A stretch of DNA of 64,000 nucleotides, from assembly GCF_900172275.1 (NCBI RefSeq), contig NZ_FWFT01000003.1, positions 1 through 64,000 of the forward strand, read 5' to 3'. This DNA comes from Pseudooctadecabacter jejudonensis (GTDB taxonomy: Bacteria; Pseudomonadota; Alphaproteobacteria; Rhodobacterales; Rhodobacteraceae). Below the pieces are notes generated by a model that saw only the letters and a program-made list of their open reading frames with translations, was not told where the DNA came from and ran no database searches. Position numbers and translations under genes: made by a program. Shown piece after piece: positions 2,466-63,230 of the stretch (its first letter is position 1; each line of letters begins with the position of its first letter).

Positions 2466-3130
2466 AGAAACCGCAACCGGTGTTTGCCCAGCAGTTCAAC
2501 CAGGATCGACTTTGCATGCTGGCGGTGTTGGCGATGTGTTTCGCGCGCCGTGGCCGCATCCCCCTCGCGGATCGCCTGATACACGGTGCGGTGGTCTTCG
2601 TTGGACTTGGTCGGCAAGGGCCGCATGAACAGGGTCGTTGTGCGCGCACGGCGGACCTGATCACTCATCATGGCGACGATCGCCTCAATGCGGCTGTTGC
2701 CGCCCAAACGGACCAACTCGGTGTGAAACCGGTCATCGGCGTCGGCCCATGCATCCAGATCATTGCCCGTGATCGCCGCATCCATATCGCGGATCGCGCG
2801 GGCCAAATCGGCCAGATCGTCGTCGTCATGATCCAGTTGGGCCGCCCGTTCTGCGGCATGGCTTTCCAGTTCGGTCAGCACGTCATAAATCTCGGCCATA
2901 TCATCCGGCGACAGCGGCAAAATTCGTACGCCTTTGCGCGGGCGCAGTTCCAGCAAGCCCTGACCTTCGAGGGTCAGAACGGCCTCACGTACCGGGGTGC
3001 GAGACATCTCAAGCAGGTTGGCCAGTTCCGATTCCAGATGATCAGACCCCGCTGCCAAATCCCCCGAAAAGATGCGGGCGCGCAATTCCTGCACCGCACG
3101 CTGCACGTTTGAGGGGCCTTTGTCTGGCAT
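2462..3130 (-). CDS. GntR/FadR-subfamily (FCD) transcriptional regulator
   Basis: This 222-residue protein has an N-terminal winged HTH (about 8-72; LEMSRTPVREAVLTLEGQG is the recognition helix region) followed by an all-helical FCD ligand-binding domain with the acidic/histidine pattern DDRFHTEL and a later HRTVYQAI. FCD regulators commonly sense sugar acids or carboxylates. It is transcribed toward nagA and lies just downstream of the two dehydrogenase genes (12 bp after the Gfo/Idh/MocA stop), so it is probably the last gene of that operon and its likely regulator (inference). Confidence 0.88.
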   Translation of the reverse strand: MPDKGPSNVQRAVQELRARIFSGDLAAGSDHLESELANLLEMSRTPVREAVLTLEGQGLLELRPRKGVRILPLSPDDMAEIYDVLTELESHAAERAAQLDHDDDDLADLARAIRDMDAAITGNDLDAWADADDRFHTELVRLGGNSRIEAIVAMMSDQVRRARTTTLFMRPLPTKSNEDHRTVYQAIREGDAATARETHRQHRQHAKSILVELLGKHRLRFL

Positions 3131-3142
3131 GAACGGCTTCTC

Positions 3143-4165
3143 CTACAGGGGGATTTTCTGCCCTGACTGGGCCGAAGCGTAAATCGCCGCTTCGATGCGT
3201 TCAACCGTCAGGTAATCCCGGGCGGTGTTCTCAGGCGTGCGGGCGTGACGAATGGCATCGACCACATGGGACTGCAGGGCGTGAACACAATCGCCGCCAA
3301 AGCCGTCAAAGCTGTCGGGGGGGACCACCATATCATTCGTCAGCTCTCCGAAGGGACGCAGATGCACGGCGCCATCCCCTGTCAGGGTCAGTGTGCCTGC
3401 CGTGCCTTCGAACGCCGCCTCGCCCATGGTGCGGCGGTGGTTGTCGGCGGCGTGATCCAGATGGCGATTGCCATCAAAAAGCGCACGAACGCCGTGCGGG
3501 TGATCAAACAGGATATAGCCCGCGTCCTCCCCTGCGATTGCAGGGTTCATGCGGCGCAGATCGGCGTAAACCGCCTGCGGATCGCCCAGAAGGTATCGGA
3601 AGGTGTCGACCCAATGCACAGCCGTTTCGTGCACCAAGAAGCGGTCCATGGTCTGAAAATAGGGCTGACGGTCCAGATAGGCGCGCGGGCCCTGCCCGTC
3701 GCCGGGCCGCAGACGGAAGGTGACCTGATGCAGATCGCCCAAAACGCCGTCCTCCAAAAGACGTTTGATGGCCCGGTACCACGGCTGAAACCGGAAGTTT
3801 TCGTGCACGACGATCGTGGCACCTGCGGCCTCGGCCTCAGCTGTCATCGCCTCGGCCTCGGCCAGATCAACACAGAACGGTTTCTGGCAGATGATCCAAC
3901 GCACGCCGTGGGCCAAGGCTGCGCGAATGGCATTGGCCTGGGCCACGGGGGGCAGGATGATATCCAACACATCAGGCTGCGCCTCAGCCAACATCTGCCC
4001 CAGATCAGCAAAGGCAGCCAGACCGGTCGCGCGGGCGCGGGTGATATCGGAGTCGCACGACGCCACAAGGTGCACACCGTCCATCCGCGCCCAACTGCCG
4101 TAATGAAACTGCGCAAAATATCCCGCGCCGACGCAGGCAACCTTTAGGTCAGCGTTGGCTGTCAT
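3143..4165 (-). CDS. Gfo/Idh/MocA-family oxidoreductase
   Basis: This 340-residue NAD(P)-dependent dehydrogenase has a Rossmann motif VACVGAGYFAQFHYG near the N-terminus and a C-terminal alpha/beta substrate domain. The family's EKP motif reads QKP here (IICQKPF); the lysine is kept. Such enzymes oxidise sugars, inositols or their acids. The start codon overlaps the stop of the upstream isopropylmalate-type dehydrogenase (ATGA), and the GntR gene follows, so these three form one minus-strand catabolic operon. The exact substrate is not readable from the sequence. Confidence 0.85.
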   Translation of the reverse strand: MTANADLKVACVGAGYFAQFHYGSWARMDGVHLVASCDSDITRARATGLAAFADLGQMLAEAQPDVLDIILPPVAQANAIRAALAHGVRWIICQKPFCVDLAEAEAMTAEAEAAGATIVVHENFRFQPWYRAIKRLLEDGVLGDLHQVTFRLRPGDGQGPRAYLDRQPYFQTMDRFLVHETAVHWVDTFRYLLGDPQAVYADLRRMNPAIAGEDAGYILFDHPHGVRALFDGNRHLDHAADNHRRTMGEAAFEGTAGTLTLTGDGAVHLRPFGELTNDMVVPPDSFDGFGGDCVHALQSHVVDAIRHARTPENTARDYLTVERIEAAIYASAQSGQKIPL

Positions 4166-5253
4166 GCGACAAACAAGGCGTCCAGAACCGCGTCTGCCGC
4201 GCGGGCCGTGCCCACCGTTCCGCCCAAATCGCGGGTCAGGGCGGTGCCACGGGCCACAACGTCCTCGACCGCTTCGCGCAGGCGGGTGCCATCGGCCACC
4301 ATCGCTGCGTTGTCATGTTTGACGCCCAACCAGTCCAACATCATGGCCGCTGACAGGATCATGGCGTGGGGGTTGGCCAGCCCACGGCCTGCAATATCAG
4401 GGGCGGATCCGTGGCAGGGCTGGAACACCGCGTGATCCAAGCCAATGTCGGCGGACGGTGCCAAGCCGAGCCCCCCCATCAGTCCAGCGCCCAGATCAGA
4501 CAGGATGTCGCCGAACATGTTTTCGGTCACCATGACATCAAAATCCCATGGTTTCTGGATCATCCACAGGGCCGTCGCATCAACATAGGCATGATCGGCC
4601 TGCAGGTCGGGATGCTGCGCGGCTTCGGCATCGAACATCGCACGGAAGAAGGCGAAGGCGCGGAAGACATTGGCCTTGTCCACGCAGGTCACACGCCCCG
4701 GCCCGCGCCCCGCGGCTTTGCGTTGCTTGGCCAGACCAAAGGCAAATTTGAACAGCTTTTCGGAAATATCGCGGGTGATCAAAAGGGTTTCGCGGGCCTC
4801 GTTTTCGGTCATTTCCCCGCAGCCTTGGGTGTGAAACAGCCCTTCGGTGCTTTCGCGGATGAGAACGAAGTCAATCTCACGGCCTGCGGGCATGTTCAGC
4901 GGCGTGCGCTGTCCGGCCTTGACCCTTACGGGGCGCACACCGGCAAAAAGGGTCAGGGCTTTGCGCAGATCGATCTGGGGCGAAATCTCTGTCCCGTCTG
5001 CGTAGCGCACGTCGGGCAAACCCATGGCGGACAGCAAGATAGCATCTGCATTGCGCGCCCTGTCCATCGACGCCACGGGCAGCGCTTCGCCCGTTTCGAC
5101 ATAATGGGCGGCGCCCGCAGGCGCGTCGGTGAATGTCAGGCCGTAGCTGTCTGACGCCTTCGCCATCCGGTCAAGGATCGCAAGGGTTGGCGCCATAATT
5201 TCAGGGCCAATCCCGTCCCCATGAAACACCGCAATGTCGAAGTTCTTTTTCAT
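4162..5253 (-). CDS. Isocitrate/isopropylmalate dehydrogenase-family protein (tartrate dehydrogenase-like)
   Basis: This 363-residue beta-decarboxylating dehydrogenase starts with FHGDGIGPEIMAPTL (NAD pocket) and carries RESTEGLF, the lysine segment VDKANVFRAF and the family signature with metal-binding aspartates in ENMFGDILSDLGAGLMGG. It lacks neighbouring leuCD genes and sits with sugar-acid genes, which argues for a catabolic role on a hydroxy-acid such as tartrate, malate or an erythronate derivative rather than leucine biosynthesis (inference). It is the first gene of a minus-strand operon; the shared motif at 5328-5342 lies 75 bp upstream. Confidence 0.8.
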   Translation of the reverse strand: MKKNFDIAVFHGDGIGPEIMAPTLAILDRMAKASDSYGLTFTDAPAGAAHYVETGEALPVASMDRARNADAILLSAMGLPDVRYADGTEISPQIDLRKALTLFAGVRPVRVKAGQRTPLNMPAGREIDFVLIRESTEGLFHTQGCGEMTENEARETLLITRDISEKLFKFAFGLAKQRKAAGRGPGRVTCVDKANVFRAFAFFRAMFDAEAAQHPDLQADHAYVDATALWMIQKPWDFDVMVTENMFGDILSDLGAGLMGGLGLAPSADIGLDHAVFQPCHGSAPDIAGRGLANPHAMILSAAMMLDWLGVKHDNAAMVADGTRLREAVEDVVARGTALTRDLGGTVGTARAADAVLDALFVA

Positions 5254-54126: not shown

Positions 54127-54615
54127 TTAAGGCAGCGTCCTGTCACGCTGCATCCGCCACAGCGCCCAAAGCCCCAAAAGGCCCATGGCAATCACGACAT
54201 ATCCGGCGGCCGACGGCTCACCAAACAGGGCGCGGTTCAGGGTCCGTCCGGGCAGCAACGTGAACAGTCCCGCCACACCCAACGCGCCAAACCACGTCGA
54301 TTGCATCGACCTGCGGTGGCGCGCGATGTCACCGATGCGAATGGCCCAGATCGCCTCCGCCATGCCCCAGGTCGCCAAGATGCTGAACACATGGATTGGG
54401 CCGAAATGTGCAAGGACCGCGATGTTGCTTTTGATGCCAAGACCCGTGAGTGCGAGGCCCAGCATCCCCACCACCCCAACGTAGCCCGCGATTTTGTGCA
54501 GCCGGTCGCGTTTGCGCCGAAACATCGCGATAGGACCGGACAAAAGCGCAAGACAGGCAAAAAGCACATGCAGTTGCACGATGGGCGCAGATGACAGGAT
54601 CGGATCAAGCGACAT
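54127..54615 (-). CDS. DUF2306-like integral membrane protein (first copy)
   Basis: I start at ATG 54615 (MSLDPILSSAPIVQLHVLFA), 162 residues with four to five hydrophobic segments. Histidines in the first helix (QLHVLFACLALLSGPIAM), LHKIAGY and IARHRRSM are placed like those of DUF2306 proteins, an uncharacterised heme-b-like membrane family. It overlaps the upstream paralogue by 11 bases; they form a two-gene operon. Confidence 0.7.
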   Translation of the reverse strand: MSLDPILSSAPIVQLHVLFACLALLSGPIAMFRRKRDRLHKIAGYVGVVGMLGLALTGLGIKSNIAVLAHFGPIHVFSILATWGMAEAIWAIRIGDIARHRRSMQSTWFGALGVAGLFTLLPGRTLNRALFGEPSAAGYVVIAMGLLGLWALWRMQRDRTLP

Positions 54616-55108
54616 GAGGCATCCCCCCTTGGATCTGACGTTGGCGCAAGACGGCACGCAGGATGACGCAGAACACCCCTGCACCAATCACCCACCACCC
54701 CAGATGATCGGCCCCGTCAAAGGCCGCTTGGTTCGAAGTTCGGCCCGGCATGAAATTGGCCAGCCCCGCCAGCACCAGCCCGAACCGATACAGATTGCCG
54801 AACACCGCGCGGTGCGCAGTGATATCGCCGCGCCGTGCGTGCCCGATGCCCAGCCACAGGGACACCAACGTCACAACAGCAAACCCATGCAGCGGGCTGA
54901 ACGGCCCTATGACCGCAAACGAATGGATGAAAAACGCCGATAGGGACACCGATGCCATCGCCAACACCCAAACATATCCCACCGTCTTATGCAGGCCCGC
55001 CCTGCGCTGACCGTACAAAGCCACGGGGCCCAGCACCAAAGCCACAAGGGCAGAGGCTGCGTGGATCTGGATGTGAACGGGGGCATTCAGACATGGGTCA
55101 AGGGTCAT
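54605..55108 (-). CDS. DUF2306-like integral membrane protein (second copy)
   Basis: The ATG at 55108 has AAAGGA upstream; 167 residues, four to five helices. It repeats the pattern of the next gene: VHIQIHAASALVALVLGPVA, LHKTVGYVWVLAM, FSPLHGFAVV and ITAHRAVFGNLY, FMPGRTSNQAAF versus LLPGRTLNRALF in its partner, so the two are tandem paralogues. It is divergent from a membrane LytTR regulator, 102 bases apart, which probably controls it (inference). Confidence 0.72.
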   Translation of the reverse strand: MTLDPCLNAPVHIQIHAASALVALVLGPVALYGQRRAGLHKTVGYVWVLAMASVSLSAFFIHSFAVIGPFSPLHGFAVVTLVSLWLGIGHARRGDITAHRAVFGNLYRFGLVLAGLANFMPGRTSNQAAFDGADHLGWWVIGAGVFCVILRAVLRQRQIQGGMPHVA

Positions 55109-55210
55109 GTCGTGTCCTTTCGAATTGGCAATTGGTTTAGCGATAGCGTACCCTTGACCCAGCGGCCGTTCGCGCCCCAGACCCTTTGTGCCAAACGACG
55201 AGACCCTTTC

Positions 55211-56002
55211 GTGAACGACACCCCACCGCAGTCTGCGCTTCGTGAATGGCGGGCCCATATGGGCCACCCGCCTCGGGCGGCGGCCTTGATCGGGGCGGCG
55301 GTGATCCTCACTGTCATGGCCCCGTTTGAAACCGATCGCACCATGCGCGCAGCGCCCCGACTGGCCTATTGGGTGATCCTTGTAGCCACCACCTATTCCA
55401 CCGGTTTTTTTGCCAACATGTTTGCGACCCTATTGGCGGGGCCAGACGCGCCTGTCTGGAAAAAGGCCGCACTTGGCGCGACGTTGACGTCTCTGGGCGT
55501 CTTTGCAGTGGTCTATGTTCTGAATGGCCTCGCCTTTGACTTTTGGGCCAGCGGGGCAATCGCGGTCGAGGGGTTTATCAACGTGGCCGTCATTGCCTCC
55601 ATCATCAGTGTCATCTTTCACATGATCGACGCAGGCACCGGCCCTGCACCGGACAGCCCTGCACTTTCCACCGATCACGCCCGCCCCGCCCTTCTTGACC
55701 GCGTGCCTTTGGACAAACGCGGCACCCTTGTGTCGATCAGCGTCGAAGACCACTACGTGCGTGTACGCACCACCAAGGGCGAGGAGATGTTGCTGCTGCG
55801 TCTTGGTGATGCCCTGCGCGAGGTGCCGCAGGACGCAGGATTGCATGTTCACCGCTCCCACTGGATCGCGACGGATCAGGTGACGGCGGCGGTTCGCAAG
55901 GGGGATGGTGCCCTCTTGTCGATGACCCACGGCCCCGATATTCCCGTCAGCCGGGCCAATGTGGCCAAACTGAAGGAGGCGGGGCTTTTGCCGCGATCAT
56001 AG
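55211..56002 (+). CDS. Membrane-anchored LytTR-domain transcription regulator
   Basis: 263 residues from GTG 55211; ATG 55259 is an alternative start. Four hydrophobic helices (AALIGAAVILTVMAP, LAYWVILVATTYSTGF, ALGATLTSLGVFAVVYVL, INVAVIASIISVIFHMI) precede a C-terminal LytTR DNA-binding domain (LVSISVEDHYVRVRTTKGEE, LHVHRSHWIATDQV, PVSRANVAKLKEAGLL). Such proteins bind DNA while in the membrane. It ends one base before lipB and faces the DUF2306 pair. Confidence 0.87.
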   Translation: MNDTPPQSALREWRAHMGHPPRAAALIGAAVILTVMAPFETDRTMRAAPRLAYWVILVATTYSTGFFANMFATLLAGPDAPVWKKAALGATLTSLGVFAVVYVLNGLAFDFWASGAIAVEGFINVAVIASIISVIFHMIDAGTGPAPDSPALSTDHARPALLDRVPLDKRGTLVSISVEDHYVRVRTTKGEEMLLLRLGDALREVPQDAGLHVHRSHWIATDQVTAAVRKGDGALLSMTHGPDIPVSRANVAKLKEAGLLPRS

Positions 56003-57952: not shown

Positions 57953-59290
57953 ATGACAAATTCAGATCAGACAAAACGATCCCTTGTCTTTGTTGTGTCG
58001 ATCCTCATCATGGCCTACGGGCTGTGGGTGTCGACCATTGGCGCGATGGCCGTTCAATCTGCTGATCTGTTCGCCACGTGGCTGGCCGCCGAGTTTTATC
58101 ACGCGGGGCAGATGGACCAGATCTATCCTGCGGCCGGGCGCTTTTTCACCATGACCACCCCGTCTGAGTGGTGGGACAGGGCTGTGCAAACCGATCCTGA
58201 GGGGCGGATTTTTCCGTATATCTACCCGCCTTTATGGGTGGCGCTCTTTAGCGGTCTCACACCACTCACCGATTTTGCCACCTTCGATCTGGCCTTTCTG
58301 ATTGTCCATCAAATCGCCCTGTTCGGCACCGTGGTCTGCGCCAGTCGACTTTTGAATTTGCATGGACAGGCTCAACTGGTTTTTGTCGCCCTGACCTATG
58401 TGGCCCTGACCAATACAATGCCCGCCCTTTTGGCTTTGTCTGAAAACCAGCCCCAAATCCTTGTCAGCTTTCTTATCGTTCTGGCATTTGAACGGATGCA
58501 CACAGGGCACGCGCGGCAGGCTGGCGCGGTTCTGGCCTTGGCTGCGGCGATCAAGCTTTATCCTGTGTTGTTTGTCGTGATCTTCATCGGACGCCGCCAA
58601 TGGCGCGCGCTGGCCAGCTTTGCGATCGTAGGCGGCGGCTTGGGCCTGGCCTCTATCGCTCTGGCAGGCTGGCCGCTGCATGCGGAATACTTGCAGCTGA
58701 TCAAGACAATGACGCGGTCGGTGGTCATCACCAACAATTCCTATTCCATCGATGCGCTGATCTCTGGTGTGGTCTGGACAGACCATATCACCTATGTCCG
58801 GTCCTCCAGCTTGGCGGACGGCGATCTGGGGTGGTACGCGATCGCCAAATCGCCCCTTTGGGCGACGATATCTGCGATCCTCACCCTTGCCGCGTTGGCC
58901 GGTGCGGCCACCTTGGCTGCGCGCAACCCCAACGACCCGTTCGTTCTGCCCACACTTGCCGTGGCCCTGGCCCTTCTGAGCCCGCTGACGTGGTCCTACA
59001 CGTATCTGACCGCATTTGTCTTTGTGGGCGCGCTGCCCGCACGGTTGGGAAAGGTCGGTTGGGGCGTCGCCATCGGCATCGCGGTCGTGTTTTTCCGATC
59101 AACGCCGCTGCATCAACTGGGCCTTGTTTATCCTTTCTTGTCGTATGGTTGGGTGGTGTGCGGGCTGGTGATCATGGTGTTTTTCCTCTCCCTTTTGGCC
59201 GCACTCTGGCGCAGTCACCAAAGCGAGGGGGAAGGCGCCGATGCCTCTCGTCCCCCTGCGCCATTTTTACCCATGCCAAATCGCGGATGA
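57953..59290 (+). CDS. GT87-like (DUF2029) membrane glycosyltransferase
   Basis: 445 residues with about ten hydrophobic segments. The N-terminal region LFATWLAAEFYHAGQMDQIYPAAGRFF and the loop FPYIYPPLWVALFSGL are typical of the DUF2029/GT87 polyprenyl-phosphate mannosyltransferase group, as is AIKLYPVLFVVIFIGRRQW. It would use a lipid-linked sugar at the periplasmic face. No glycan genes are adjacent. Confidence 0.75.
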   Translation: MTNSDQTKRSLVFVVSILIMAYGLWVSTIGAMAVQSADLFATWLAAEFYHAGQMDQIYPAAGRFFTMTTPSEWWDRAVQTDPEGRIFPYIYPPLWVALFSGLTPLTDFATFDLAFLIVHQIALFGTVVCASRLLNLHGQAQLVFVALTYVALTNTMPALLALSENQPQILVSFLIVLAFERMHTGHARQAGAVLALAAAIKLYPVLFVVIFIGRRQWRALASFAIVGGGLGLASIALAGWPLHAEYLQLIKTMTRSVVITNNSYSIDALISGVVWTDHITYVRSSSLADGDLGWYAIAKSPLWATISAILTLAALAGAATLAARNPNDPFVLPTLAVALALLSPLTWSYTYLTAFVFVGALPARLGKVGWGVAIGIAVVFFRSTPLHQLGLVYPFLSYGWVVCGLVIMVFFLSLLAALWRSHQSEGEGADASRPPAPFLPMPNRG

Positions 59291-59387
59291 AGTCTTGCTC
59301 TGATGGACGCTGGCCCCTAGAACGCTTCCAAAGCCATTGGGCTGAGTCTGTCAGCCCACAAGATTAGCCACGAAGAGGGAGCGCCAC

Positions 59388-61061
59388 ATGGTAGACGCAG
59401 CCGTCCACGACCATGAGCATGAAGACAACCGCGGGTTCTTCACCCGTTGGTTCATGTCCACCAACCACAAAGATATCGGGATCCTGTACCTGTTTGTTTC
59501 AGGTTTTGTCGGGTTCCTGTCCGTCGCCTTCACCATCTACATGCGGATGGAACTGATGCACCCCGGTGTGCAGTACATGTGCATGGAAGGCGCACGTCTG
59601 TTCCCAGCCGCATTGGACGAATGTACGCCAAACGGCCACCTGTGGAACGTGATGATCACGTACCATGGTGTCCTGATGATGTTCTTCGTGGTGATCCCTG
59701 CCCTGTTTGGCGGCTTCGGTAACTATTTCATGCCACTGCAGATCGGCGCGCCCGACATGGCCTTCCCTCGTCTGAACAACCTGTCGTTCTGGCTGTTCTG
59801 TACCGGTGTGGCCCTCGGCGTGGCCTCAATCCTCGCGCCTGGCGGCAATGGCCAACTGGGCTCGGGCGTTGGCTGGGTTCTCTATCCGCCGCTGTCCACG
59901 AATGAGGCCGGCATCTCCATGGACCTCGCGATTTTTGCGGTCCACGTGTCCGGTGCCTCGTCCATTCTGGGCGCGATCAACATGATCACGACCTTCCTGA
60001 ACATGCGCGCCCCTGGCATGACACTGCACAAGGTGCCGCTGTTCGCCTGGTCGATCTTTGTCACCGCGTGGCTGATCCTTCTGGCCCTGCCTGTGCTGGC
60101 TGGTGCGATCACCATGTTGCTGATGGATCGTAACTTCGGCACGACCTTCTTCGATCCTGCCGGTGGCGGTGATCCCGTGTTGTACCAGCACATCCTGTGG
60201 TTCTTCGGTCACCCAGAGGTCTACATTATCATCGTGCCAGCCTTCGGCATCATCAGCCACATCATTGCAACTTTCTCGCGCAAGCCGATCTTTGGCTACC
60301 TGCCGATGGTCTATGCAATGGTCGCAATTGGTGCGCTGGGCTTCGTTGTCTGGGCACACCACATGTACACCGTCGGCATGTCTCTGACCCAGCAGTCCTA
60401 TTTCATGTTGGCCACCATGGTTATCGCGGTGCCCACAGGGGTTAAGATCTTCTCGTGGATCGCGACAATGTGGGGCGGATCCGTGGAATTCAAAACACCT
60501 ATGATGTGGGCGTTTGGGTTCCTGTTCCTGTTCACTGTGGGTGGTGTCACCGGCATCGTCCTGTCGCAGGCGGGCGTGGACCGCGCCTATCACGACACCT
60601 ACTATGTTGTGGCGCACTTCCACTACGTGATGTCGCTGGGTGCTGTGTTTGGTATCTTTGCAGGGATCTATTTCTACCTGCCCAAGATGTCCGGGCGCAT
60701 GATGCCTGAATGGGTCGGCCACACACACTTCTGGCTGATGTTCATCGGCGCCAACATCACCTTCTTCCCCCAGCACTTCCTGGGCCGGAACGGGATGCCA
60801 CGCCGCTACATCGACTACAACGAAGCCTTCGCGCTGTGGAACTATGTTTCCTCCATCGGTGCCTTCATCGCCTTCGGCAGCTTCTTGTTCTTCATTGTCA
60901 TGCTCTTCAAGACACTGCTGTCCCCGAAGAACGCGACCGAGAACAACCCATGGAACGAATATGCAGACACGCTGGAATGGACCCTGCCGTCCCCTCCACC
61001 AGAGCATACGTTCGAAATCCTGCCCAAGCAGGAAGACTGGGACAAGCAGCCGTCGCACTAA
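59388..61061 (+). CDS. ctaD: Cytochrome c oxidase subunit I (aa3 type)
   Basis: 557 residues, twelve helices. Diagnostic text: [12 protein letters not shown], heme ligand in [11 protein letters not shown], the His-Tyr cross-link motif [29 protein letters not shown], the heme a/a3 histidines in [16 protein letters not shown] and [14 protein letters not shown]. It is the catalytic subunit of terminal oxidase; no other cta gene follows here, as is usual for roseobacters where coxII-ctaB-ctaG-coxIII are elsewhere. Confidence 0.97.
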
Positions 61062-61084
61062 CCGCTGGCTGATGTGACTTCAAT

Positions 61085-61114
61085 GGCCCCGGCAGGAACG
61101 TCGGGGCCGTTTTT
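61085..61114 (+). terminator. Rho-independent terminator after ctaD
   Basis: GGCCCCG (61085-61091) pairs with CGGGGCC (61102-61108) and is followed by G and five T. It ends the ctaD transcript 24 bases after its stop. Confidence 0.85.
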
Positions 61115-61170
61115 ATGCCAACAGTGCCTGCAAGGCCAAACCTGCGGGTGTGTAACAAAGGGATCCTTAT

Positions 61171-61716
61171 TTGCTGTTTCTTTGGCCCGCAGCCCTGTTG
61201 TTCGCGCCCCTGTGTGTCACCCTTGCGGGCGGGCGCAGCGTGTTTCTCTGGGGAAGCCTCTTTCTGGGGGCGGCAGCCCTCTATGGTATGGCGGTGCTCT
61301 CGTCTTACTCTCTGGCCTCTGGCGGACCCGGTCGTCCCCTCGGCCCGCTGTTTGCCAACACCGATGATCCTACGGATATAAGCCTGGTCTTTCACTTTGC
61401 AGAACTCCGCAGATTGACCTTGACCTATGCGGTCACCCTTTTGCCGACGGTGGCGCTGTTGTGGCCGTCCCATCCAGTTCGGGCACCATGGGATGTGGCG
61501 CTCTTTTGGGGGTTCGCCACGCTGGCGCTGGCTCACCTCTACCTTCCCACTTTGATGTTGGGGCGAGAGGGCATGCCACCAAACTATGTGGACTTCAGTG
61601 ACCGATTGGCATTTGCGACAGGGCTTGCGCGAACTGCAGGTGGATTGGCCGTGTTGACCCTCGTCCTTGCGGTCCTCCGCCCTATCTTTGTCGCCATACG
61701 CAAGAGGCTGACGTGA
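61171..61716 (+). CDS. Membrane protein resembling the CtaD C-terminus
   Basis: The start is probably TTG at 61171 (AAAGGGA upstream); 181 residues, four to five helices. By eye, residues 75 to about 147 align without a gap to the CtaD stretch from VAHFHYV to [11 protein letters not shown]: both have His-Phe, then exactly 62 residues to the end of LGR-x-GMP (LGRNGMP in CtaD, LGREGMP here), then Y, D and A at equal spacing (YVDFSDRLA). The second heme histidine is Ala here. It overlaps nothing and DUF2244 follows two bases later. Function unknown; it cannot be an oxidase by itself. Confidence 0.7.
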   Translation: MLFLWPAALLFAPLCVTLAGGRSVFLWGSLFLGAAALYGMAVLSSYSLASGGPGRPLGPLFANTDDPTDISLVFHFAELRRLTLTYAVTLLPTVALLWPSHPVRAPWDVALFWGFATLALAHLYLPTLMLGREGMPPNYVDFSDRLAFATGLARTAGGLAVLTLVLAVLRPIFVAIRKRLT

Positions 61717-61717
61717 C

Positions 61718-62221
61718 ATGCCCTATGAATGGATCGCCCCCGAAGACCCCGCACCAAAGTCGGCCCCCCTGGCCGAATTGCACCTATGGCCCTACAGGTC
61801 CCTGCTGCGCCGTGATTTCGTGACTTTCTTCGCCGCTACCTCGGCAATGATCCTTCTGCCGTTGCTGGCCGTCATGGGCTCACCCGTGCTGTGGGGGCTG
61901 CTTCCTTTCTTTATCATCACAGTCGGCGGCATCTGGTACGCCCTTCAACGCAATCAACGTGACGGTGAAATCCTCGAAGAATTGCGCATTTGGCCCGATC
62001 GGATCACCCTGGATCACATCCATCCTCGGCGGGGACACCACAGCTGGGAGGCCAACCCCTATTGGGTGCAAATCAAGATCGACCCGCATCATGAAAAGAT
62101 CCCAAACTACCTAACTCTCAAAGGGAACGATCGCGTGGTCGAACTCGGCACTTTTTTGTCGGACGAGGAACGCGCCGCCCTCTACGACGAGGTTGACTTC
62201 GCCATTCGCGCAGCCCTCTGA
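61718..62221 (+). CDS. DUF2244 membrane protein
   Basis: 167 residues with two central hydrophobic helices (MILLPLLAVMGSPVLWGLLPF, FIITVGGIWYAL) and a basic cytoplasmic C-terminal half (LRIWPDRITLDHIHPR, SWEANPYWVQIKI). DUF2244 proteins often lie close to cytochrome oxidase genes in alphaproteobacteria; a role in oxidase assembly has been supposed but is not established. Confidence 0.8.
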   Translation: MPYEWIAPEDPAPKSAPLAELHLWPYRSLLRRDFVTFFAATSAMILLPLLAVMGSPVLWGLLPFFIITVGGIWYALQRNQRDGEILEELRIWPDRITLDHIHPRRGHHSWEANPYWVQIKIDPHHEKIPNYLTLKGNDRVVELGTFLSDEERAALYDEVDFAIRAAL

Positions 62222-62230
62222 ACCGGCGCC

Positions 62231-62276
62231 CAGACTTTCATTGAAAGTCTGCCACCAAATCCTTTTCAAAGGATTT
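62231..62276. repeat. Tandem palindrome pair (REP-like)
   Basis: CAGACTTTCATTGAAAGTCTG (21 bases, 62231-62251) and AAATCCTTTTCAAAGGATTT (62257-62276) are two separate hairpins, each followed by GCCACC or a near copy. The [hairpin + GCCACC] x 2 layout resembles repeat families of roseobacter intergenic regions and could be a terminator. Confidence 0.6.
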
Positions 62277-62333
62277 GCCACCAACCGCAACAAACGGGTC
62301 GCATAGGTAAATCGCCGTCCCTATGGTCACACC

Positions 62334-63230
62334 ATGACGACGCAACGCACCCTTACCACACAGACATGGGCAGAACTTTTTGTACTGGGCCTCATTTGGG
62401 GCGGCAGTTTTCTGGCCATCCGTCTTGCGTTGAACGAGGTGCCTTTTGTCACCTCTGTGGCGCACCGCGTGTTCTGGGCGGCCCTGATCCTGTGGGGCTA
62501 TGTGGCCTTGCGACGTCTGCCGCTGCCAAAAGGGCGCGATTGGGGCGTCTTGTTCGTGATGGGCGTTCTGAACAACGTGATCCCATTCAGCCTGATGGCG
62601 TGGGGGCAGCTCTATATCCCGACCGGTCTGACATCTGTGTTCAACGCAGGCACCGCAATTTTCGGCGTCCTCGTGGCGGCCCTTTTGCTGAGCGACGAAA
62701 GGATGACAACCCGCAAAGCCACCGGATCCCTGATCGGTTTTTTCGGCGTGGCAACCGCCATCGGGCTCGACAGTTTGCGCGACTTCGACATTACATCGCT
62801 GGCGCAATTGGCCGTCATCGGCGGAACGATTTCATACGCCTTCGCTGGGGTTTGGGCGCGGGTCCATATGGGGCACCTGACCCCGCAGGTGGCCGCGGCG
62901 GGCATGTTGACCGGATCCTCGCTGATCATGGTGCCGGCAGCGTTTATCATTGACGGTGTTCCGTCCGCCAACCTGAGCCTGACAGCCTTGGGCGCCATCG
63001 CCTATTACGTGGTTTTCGCCACGGCAGGGGCGTATCTGTTGTATTACCGGATCCTCAAGGCAGCAGGATCGGCCAACACAATGATCGTCACGTTACTGAT
63101 CCCGCCCGTGTCGATTGTACTGGGGGCATGGATGCTGGATGAAACCTTATCACCCAATGTCTATGTGGGTCTCGCCCTTCTTGCGGTCGGGCTTATCATC
63201 CTGGACGGACGGCTTTTGCGCCGACGTTAG
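62334..63230 (+). CDS. DMT-superfamily transporter (EamA type)
   Basis: 298 residues, ten helices in two EamA repeats (FVLGLIWGGSFLAIRLAL; then AYLLYYRILKAAGSANTMIV near the end of the second). It exports or imports small metabolites by proton exchange; the substrate is unknown. Its stop overlaps the end of the converging DUF3008-like gene by four bases. Confidence 0.87.
   Translation: MTTQRTLTTQTWAELFVLGLIWGGSFLAIRLALNEVPFVTSVAHRVFWAALILWGYVALRRLPLPKGRDWGVLFVMGVLNNVIPFSLMAWGQLYIPTGLTSVFNAGTAIFGVLVAALLLSDERMTTRKATGSLIGFFGVATAIGLDSLRDFDITSLAQLAVIGGTISYAFAGVWARVHMGHLTPQVAAAGMLTGSSLIMVPAAFIIDGVPSANLSLTALGAIAYYVVFATAGAYLLYYRILKAAGSANTMIVTLLIPPVSIVLGAWMLDETLSPNVYVGLALLAVGLIILDGRLLRRR

Follow-up and report, generated by a model that had tools for sequence, protein, structure and literature searches.

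We found that a short gene (X; 61,171 to 61,716, forward strand) directly downstream of ctaD in the window, the whole 64,000-nucleotide stretch of DNA analysed, is, as far as sequence comparison can tell, a true old partial copy of the tail of cytochrome c oxidase subunit I (COX1). The initial annotation had proposed an ancient partial duplicate of ctaD, and this descent held up in profile searches, in homologues from related genomes and in a phylogenetic tree. X is under purifying selection in two close pairs of genomes and has decayed repeatedly in others. Our preferred reading, which we hold with a little less than even confidence, is that it encodes a COX1-derived, heme-less accessory membrane protein that still works in some lineages while it decays in others, this one perhaps among them.

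The parent gene, ctaD (59,388 to 61,061, forward strand), encodes subunit I of the aa3-type cytochrome c oxidase. Its product is full length at 557 residues, matches the Pfam COX1 model with an E-value of 4.6e-153 and scores 677 bits against TIGR02891 (CtaD_CoxA), above the cut-off of 670.75 bits. Between ctaD and X lies a hairpin with a T run (61,082 to 61,114, forward strand), a probable ctaD terminator whose predicted fold has an energy of -26.7 kcal/mol over positions 61,062 to 61,125 (z -2.22; 6 of 200 shuffled sequences were equally stable). GC hairpins of like kind follow ctaD in relatives; the hairpin at 61,082 was not among the calls of a consensus terminator scan. A consensus scan of positions 59,200 to 62,400 returned no promoter-like sites (1.1 in shuffled sequence). 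X starts with a TTG codon seven bases past AAAGGGA (61,157 to 61,163, forward strand), a likely ribosome-binding site judging from its letters, and its 181-codon open frame ends in TGA. A single base separates this stop from the ATG, at 61,718, of a gene for a DUF2244 membrane protein (61,718 to 62,221, forward strand; PF10003, E 1.9e-37). The coordinates initially given for the short frame are correct. The outer neighbours are a GT87 glycosyltransferase gene 5' of ctaD and an EamA transporter gene 3' of the DUF2244 gene. Elsewhere in the window, two adjacent reverse-strand frames (54,127 to 54,687 and 54,605 to 55,267) both match DUF2306, at E 6.4e-15 and 1.9e-13; from its listed start, the second overlaps with a forward-strand LytTR-domain frame (54,989 to 56,002).

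Searched alone, the window's X had no match in Pfam or NCBIfam (limit E 10), no usable match in PHROGs (best E 0.069), only chance-level matches among PDB sequences (best E 0.44), and no match among plasmids or genome contigs; the X of genome G198 had one contig match, in Octadecabacter algicola D2-3, at 100% identity. We reproduced both counts given for the proposed likeness to CtaD: the stretch from HF to the end of LGREGMP is 62 residues long, the same number as in CtaD, and 16 of 73 positions are identical in an ungapped alignment. With the offset fixed, none of 2,000 shuffles of X reached 16 identities in 73. When the best offset is sought, the score is ordinary, since 86 of 300 shuffles reach at least 16 identities in some 73-residue stretch of CtaD (mean 15.0). 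That result speaks for a chance resemblance between hydrophobic proteins, as does the lack of any hit to Pfam or NCBIfam for the window's X. What goes beyond chance in X, by our alignments, is the concentration of identities in the stretch LGREGMP--Y-D. Both BLASTP and profile alignment place its best-kept COX1 motif, LGREGMPPNYVD (codons at 61,558 to 61,593, forward strand), on a 12-residue counterpart in CtaD. BLASTP of X against CtaD gave an E-value of 4e-5 as a single comparison. A profile built from 92 distinct CtaD tails in the fetched genomes gave the window's X 18.3 bits, a single-sequence E-value of 9e-8, where the best of 200 shuffles had 3.2 bits; the match is confined to residues 119 to 166. 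With the same profile, 10 of the 12 X proteins outscored all 200 of their own shuffles; those of G208 (-0.4 bits) and G258 (2.5 bits) did not.

Homologues tie X to COX1 more directly. Genome G145, of the same genus, carries in the same slot an X that is 28% identical to the window's (E 2.5e-15), contains GMPRRYIDY and matches Pfam COX1 above the cut-off (E 1.6e-10). Used as a query, this protein has matches at E <= 0.01 in 278 of 295 genomes of the family, and nearly all of the matches listed are open frames of CtaD length. Among ten relatives' X proteins compared with Pfam COX1, six match at E 2.9e-6 or better, five of those above the cut-off; those of G208, G198, G207 and G258 do not. With a limit of E <= 1, a profile restricted to Octadecabacter (six rows, window included) retrieved 25 distinct sequences from the PDB, all named as cytochrome c oxidase subunit 1, the best match being to residues 370 to 507 of the Rhodobacter sphaeroides protein (E 1.8e-10). 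A wider profile (seven rows, window excluded) had 38 hits at E <= 0.01 (best E 2.1e-31), and every one is a subunit I from a cytochrome or quinol oxidase. Because homologues in the same slot match COX1, the chance explanation is refuted; BLASTP and the profiles also speak against it, and we give it next to no probability. X is homologous to COX1 over R. sphaeroides residues 370 to 520 or so, a part that we take to be helices IX to XII. The initial description of a CtaD C-terminal half is right as to the C-terminal origin and too generous as to the extent, which is about the last quarter. The curated TIGR02891 model does not match the window's X, and the best of eight relatives' X proteins scores 68.7 bits, far under its cut-off.

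The initial annotation had also read the heme a histidine of CtaD as replaced by alanine in X. Our alignments do not bear this out. The reading requires the HF of X to pair with that of AHFHY, and the constant count of 62 masks two offsetting shifts. The distance from the histidine to the FW pair is 37 residues in X as against 38 in CtaD, and the CtaD-tail profile alignments leave the HF stretch outside the part they cover. The family alignment places the window's FH instead on the FH or YH of FHDTYYVV, with DTYYV deleted in the window's X. The ligands to heme a3 and heme a are the two histidines of AHFHY in the tenth helix of CtaD, and the window's X contains no H-x-H at all. Among the 12 X proteins, both histidines are kept in two (AHIHY in G497, AHVHY in G411), one in three (AHYKY in G145, AYSHY in G317, AVNHY in G166) and neither in seven, including G049 (ANIGP), G198 and G207 (AGNAE), G258 (APPGT) and G301 (GQATY). 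The CuB region falls outside the 181-residue X of the window, as the COX1 match begins near R. sphaeroides residue 370 and the CuB histidines of that protein are given as H333 and H334 (PMC12901375). X cannot be an oxidase: it lacks helices I to VIII, with the CuB ligands, and most copies have lost the tenth helix's heme ligands.

Structural superposition, a check proposed at the outset, did not separate COX1 from unrelated helical proteins. With a 12-row alignment, AlphaFold predicted long helices for both the window's X (mean pLDDT 74.7, pTM 0.60) and that of G145 (pLDDT 70.2, pTM 0.56), and Foldseek with these two models found no match at E <= 0.001. In VIA-align, the window model aligned in register with R. 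sphaeroides COX1 residues 376 to 526 at Z 6.2 (125 residues aligned, rmsd 4.2), not above unrelated rows, and an out-of-register COX1 row (3om3_A, 19 to 221) scored higher, at Z 7.3. The G145 model behaved similarly: its in-register COX1 rows, from residue 376 to 521-526, had Z 4.9 and 4.6, not above unrelated helical proteins, and the out-of-register 1occ_A row (3 to 175) had Z 5.2.

X is patchily distributed. The 3' end of ctaD could be read in 158 genomes. X models had matches at E <= 1e-3 in 18 of them, from 11 genera, and 11 of these 18 had themselves supplied rows to the model; the other 140 genomes read had no match. The 158 loci, Octadecabacter included, were pooled from several searches, some of which chose loci by their likeness to X, so they are not a random sample. 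One of the 18, G144 (E 6e-5), was counted although it has no DTYYV. A DUF2244 gene lies 3' of ctaD in 138 of the 158 genomes. The distance from the ctaD stop to the start of the DUF2244 model is 554 to 724 bases in 17 of the 18 genomes with X and 1,607 in G072, and the stop of X abuts or overlaps the start of DUF2244 in several relatives. This constancy of position is partly by construction, because the survey was confined to the DNA 3' of ctaD, on one strand; whole-genome searches showed that the intact copies among the rows followed also sit downstream of ctaD. In the subset of loci fetched by place, a ctaD end was recognised in 75 of 80 (none in G060, G265, G355, G225 and G298), and four of the 75 match X: G349, G144, G273 and G072, the last two broken.

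Several weaker candidates were examined and not counted. The match in G130 has four internal stops and was set aside as chance. Slot frames in G127 and G234 do not match the X model, and that of G418 matched an earlier model (E 6e-5) and not the survey model. The frames in G127 (locus L019) and G418 (L112) are hydrophobic, about 160 to 185 codons long and situated between ctaD and DUF2244; each could be an X that has diverged too far to be recognised, or a gene of other descent. In G009 a frameshifted second ctaD was rejected as a candidate, being a broken ctaD copy (L093, about 2,541 to 4,462, with a frame change in mid-gene); this genome has an intact ctaD elsewhere. Among the matches listed in a class-wide search of 289 genomes, no short X outside the family rose above the CtaD background, and a few short frames, such as those in G821 and G865, were seen.

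Within Octadecabacter, where 18 of 19 genomes have DUF2244, the fate of the gene can be followed closely. It is complete and open in five (G000, G145, G198, G207 and G208), cut at a contig end in one (G205) and broken in three, by frameshifts in G206 and G199 and by a large deletion in G201 that leaves only the two ends. Five genomes lack it and have a gap of less than 190 bases (G202, G203, G209, G210 and G213), and two have a longer stretch of other sequence in the slot (G214 and G204). The remaining three were not scored: G212 and G200 have no ctaD beside DUF2244 in the fetched stretch, and G211 has no DUF2244. Outside the genus, X is broken by frameshifts in G591 and G273 and by an in-frame stop in G072. 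The latter is a single stop at bases 268 to 270 past the ctaD stop (L147), inside HDTY-V, and may reflect a sequencing error or early decay.

These breakages raise the possibility that the window's X is itself a relic, an unneeded ancient partial duplicate of ctaD that is drifting and has stayed open by chance or for want of time. Rates of change, computed by the Nei-Gojobori method with our own script, bear on this. The X proteins of G198 and G207 are 81.6% identical, with dN 0.098, dS 0.633 and dN/dS 0.155, compared with 0.034 for the CtaD tail and 0.055 for DUF2244. Those of G497 and G411 are 75.5% identical with dN/dS 0.34, compared with 0.067 and 0.147. Ratios of 0.155 and 0.34 indicate that X is a protein under constraint in those two lineages. 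For the window and G208, X is only 38.5% identical as against 97.6% for the CtaD tails, a likeness of tails comparable to that of G198 and G207; dN is 0.71, dS 1.64 and dN/dS 0.43, with dS near saturation. All pairs other than G198/G207 and G497/G411 are near saturation in this way, and their ratios carry low weight. On these comparisons X changes much faster in the window's lineage. The window's copy has acquired indels, DTYYV is gone, and GMPRRY has become GMPPNY, without the Arg pair. It shares COX1 motif losses with the X of G208, and by these signs it is among the most eroded copies.

This divergence far beyond the neighbouring genes, together with the frameshifts, the deletion and the in-frame stop, is what a drifting relic would produce. 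Speaking for a working gene are the uninterrupted 181-codon frame with its likely ribosome-binding site and its stop just short of DUF2244, by a single base; the ratio of 0.43, which is below one although dS is near saturation; and the constraint on X in the two close pairs. We regard the relic explanation of the window's copy as a serious possibility, if a rather doubtful one. For this strain, patchiness, repeated breakage and an eroded copy fit it at least as well as they fit an accessory role.

The one-base spacing in the window, the abutting or overlapping junctions in several relatives, and a protein that changes fast while its frame stays open also suggest a translated leader, a frame that delivers ribosomes to the DUF2244 start and is selected as a frame, with little selection on the protein. 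We consider this improbable: it leaves the ratios of 0.155 and 0.34 and the lasting DTYYV and GMPRRY motifs unexplained. Moreover, where X is missing, DUF2244 simply comes after ctaD; the gap is 300 bases or less in 86 of the 123 non-Octadecabacter genomes that have both genes.

A maximum-likelihood tree of ten X proteins (G208 and G258 excluded) and 41 of the 92 distinct CtaD tails separated the two groups with support 93/82, which is under the star level and carries a long-branch warning. No X falls beside the CtaD of its own genome. The tree favours, but does not prove, a single old duplication over several. Independent duplications of the ctaD tail, one per lineage, would account for the patchy presence, for the long branches and limited support, and for the N-terminus of X in G497, G411 and G144, which is unlike that of the other X proteins. 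We think such repeated origins quite improbable, given that no X groups with its own CtaD and that an N-terminal hydrophobic stretch and the slot are common to the X of several genera. In G497 and G411 (L121 and L113) the X frame begins eight bases past the ctaD stop and crosses the GC-rich hairpin, which lies within the first 75 or so bases past that stop and encodes GALLGGAYF of the first hydrophobic stretch. There the same DNA may be both terminator and coding sequence. An open frame likewise crosses the hairpin in G144, G349 and G273, with start codons that are provisional.

Which parts of COX1 have lasted in X offers a hint of what it might do. X keeps on average 34.6% of 75 columns that are invariant (at least 97%) in CtaD tails. 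By counts taken from the printed alignment, in GMPRRY the P is kept in 11 of 12 copies, the Y in 10, the G of GMP in nine and each Arg in eight. In DTYYV, Y and V are each kept in 10 of 11 and D and T each in nine of 11. Some well-kept positions lie outside these two motifs, namely the A of VVA (9 of 12), an N (9 of 11) and the FW pair (8 of 12). Out of 12 copies, six retain the HD turn's H, and three and four retain the one and the other heme histidine. The HD turn corresponds to H411 and D412 of R. sphaeroides subunit I and the Arg pair to R481 and R482, residues listed with a water cluster in PMC12901375, where the bovine equivalent of R481 is described as forming a salt bridge to a heme a3 propionate. 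In the main it is the P-side surface of COX1 that has lasted longest in X, namely the turn at HDTYYV and the loop at GMPRRY-D. Since X keeps much of this face and sheds the heme ligands, we infer that a partner-binding stand-in fits better than a heme protein.

Under the accessory-protein reading that we prefer, the 3' end of ctaD, coding for the last four helices (IX to XII), would have been duplicated, probably once, in an ancestor of the Rhodobacteraceae genera that carry X. The copy lies behind the probable ctaD terminator and beside the DUF2244 gene, and the two are probably translated together. Its product, a small membrane protein, would stand in for the CtaD tail without carrying heme. 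It would bind one of CtaD's P-side partners, which might be CtaC, some assembly factor or the product of the DUF2244 gene, and if expressed could help or tune biogenesis of the aa3 oxidase. Being dispensable, it would be lacking, broken or lost in many lineages, and the window's copy would be far along that road. The purifying selection in two pairs and the neighbourhood of ctaD and DUF2244 fit the role of assembly factor or accessory subunit suggested at the outset. Weighing against this reading are the absence of X from most genomes read, the broken remnants and the short X-less gaps in Octadecabacter, the divergence of the window's copy from that of G208, an HD-turn histidine kept in only half of the copies, the well-kept positions outside the two P-side motifs, the motif losses in the window, and a scan without promoter-like sites. 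A more specific proposal, unlikely in all its parts together, is that X represents an undescribed family of COX1-derived, heme-less four-helix proteins that mimic the P-side face of COX1 as biogenesis or regulatory partners of the aa3 oxidase. The mimicked face would be the Mg-site turn and the propionate-arginine loop. In some genera, because the hairpin writes the start of its first helix, X would be made only when transcription reads through the terminator.

X differs from each of the known systems that it resembles. The better-kept copies share DTYYV and GMP--Y-D with CtaD and COX1 (PF00115, TIGR02891), but X has 155 to 187 residues rather than about 557, has no CuB region and has mostly lost the heme ligands. 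In the split COX1 of some eukaryotes, a separate C-terminal piece completes the split enzyme; X is likewise a free-standing C-terminal part of COX1, but the ctaD beside it is full length. The neighbouring DUF2244 protein is also a small membrane protein of unknown function, but X has no match to PF10003. DUF983 and DUF2909 are described as COX4-like small proteins of alphaproteobacterial COX operons that resemble subunit IV (PMC4013037); these too are small membrane proteins beside COX genes, but X comes from subunit I. Among the open-access titles and abstract openings listed for DUF2244, for truncated or duplicated ctaD and its paralogues, for partial COX1 duplication, for assembly factors and for truncated heme-copper oxidase paralogues, we found no description of X.

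Few known membrane proteins are as highly conserved as COX1. If a free copy of its last four helices has been selected while shedding its heme ligands, that copy would show which surfaces matter apart from catalysis, and X could offer a natural means of probing CtaD recognition in the course of assembly. The copies grade from ones that retain both histidines into broken remnants, a series in which one can follow, inside a single bacterial family, how a duplicated core enzyme is recruited or lost.
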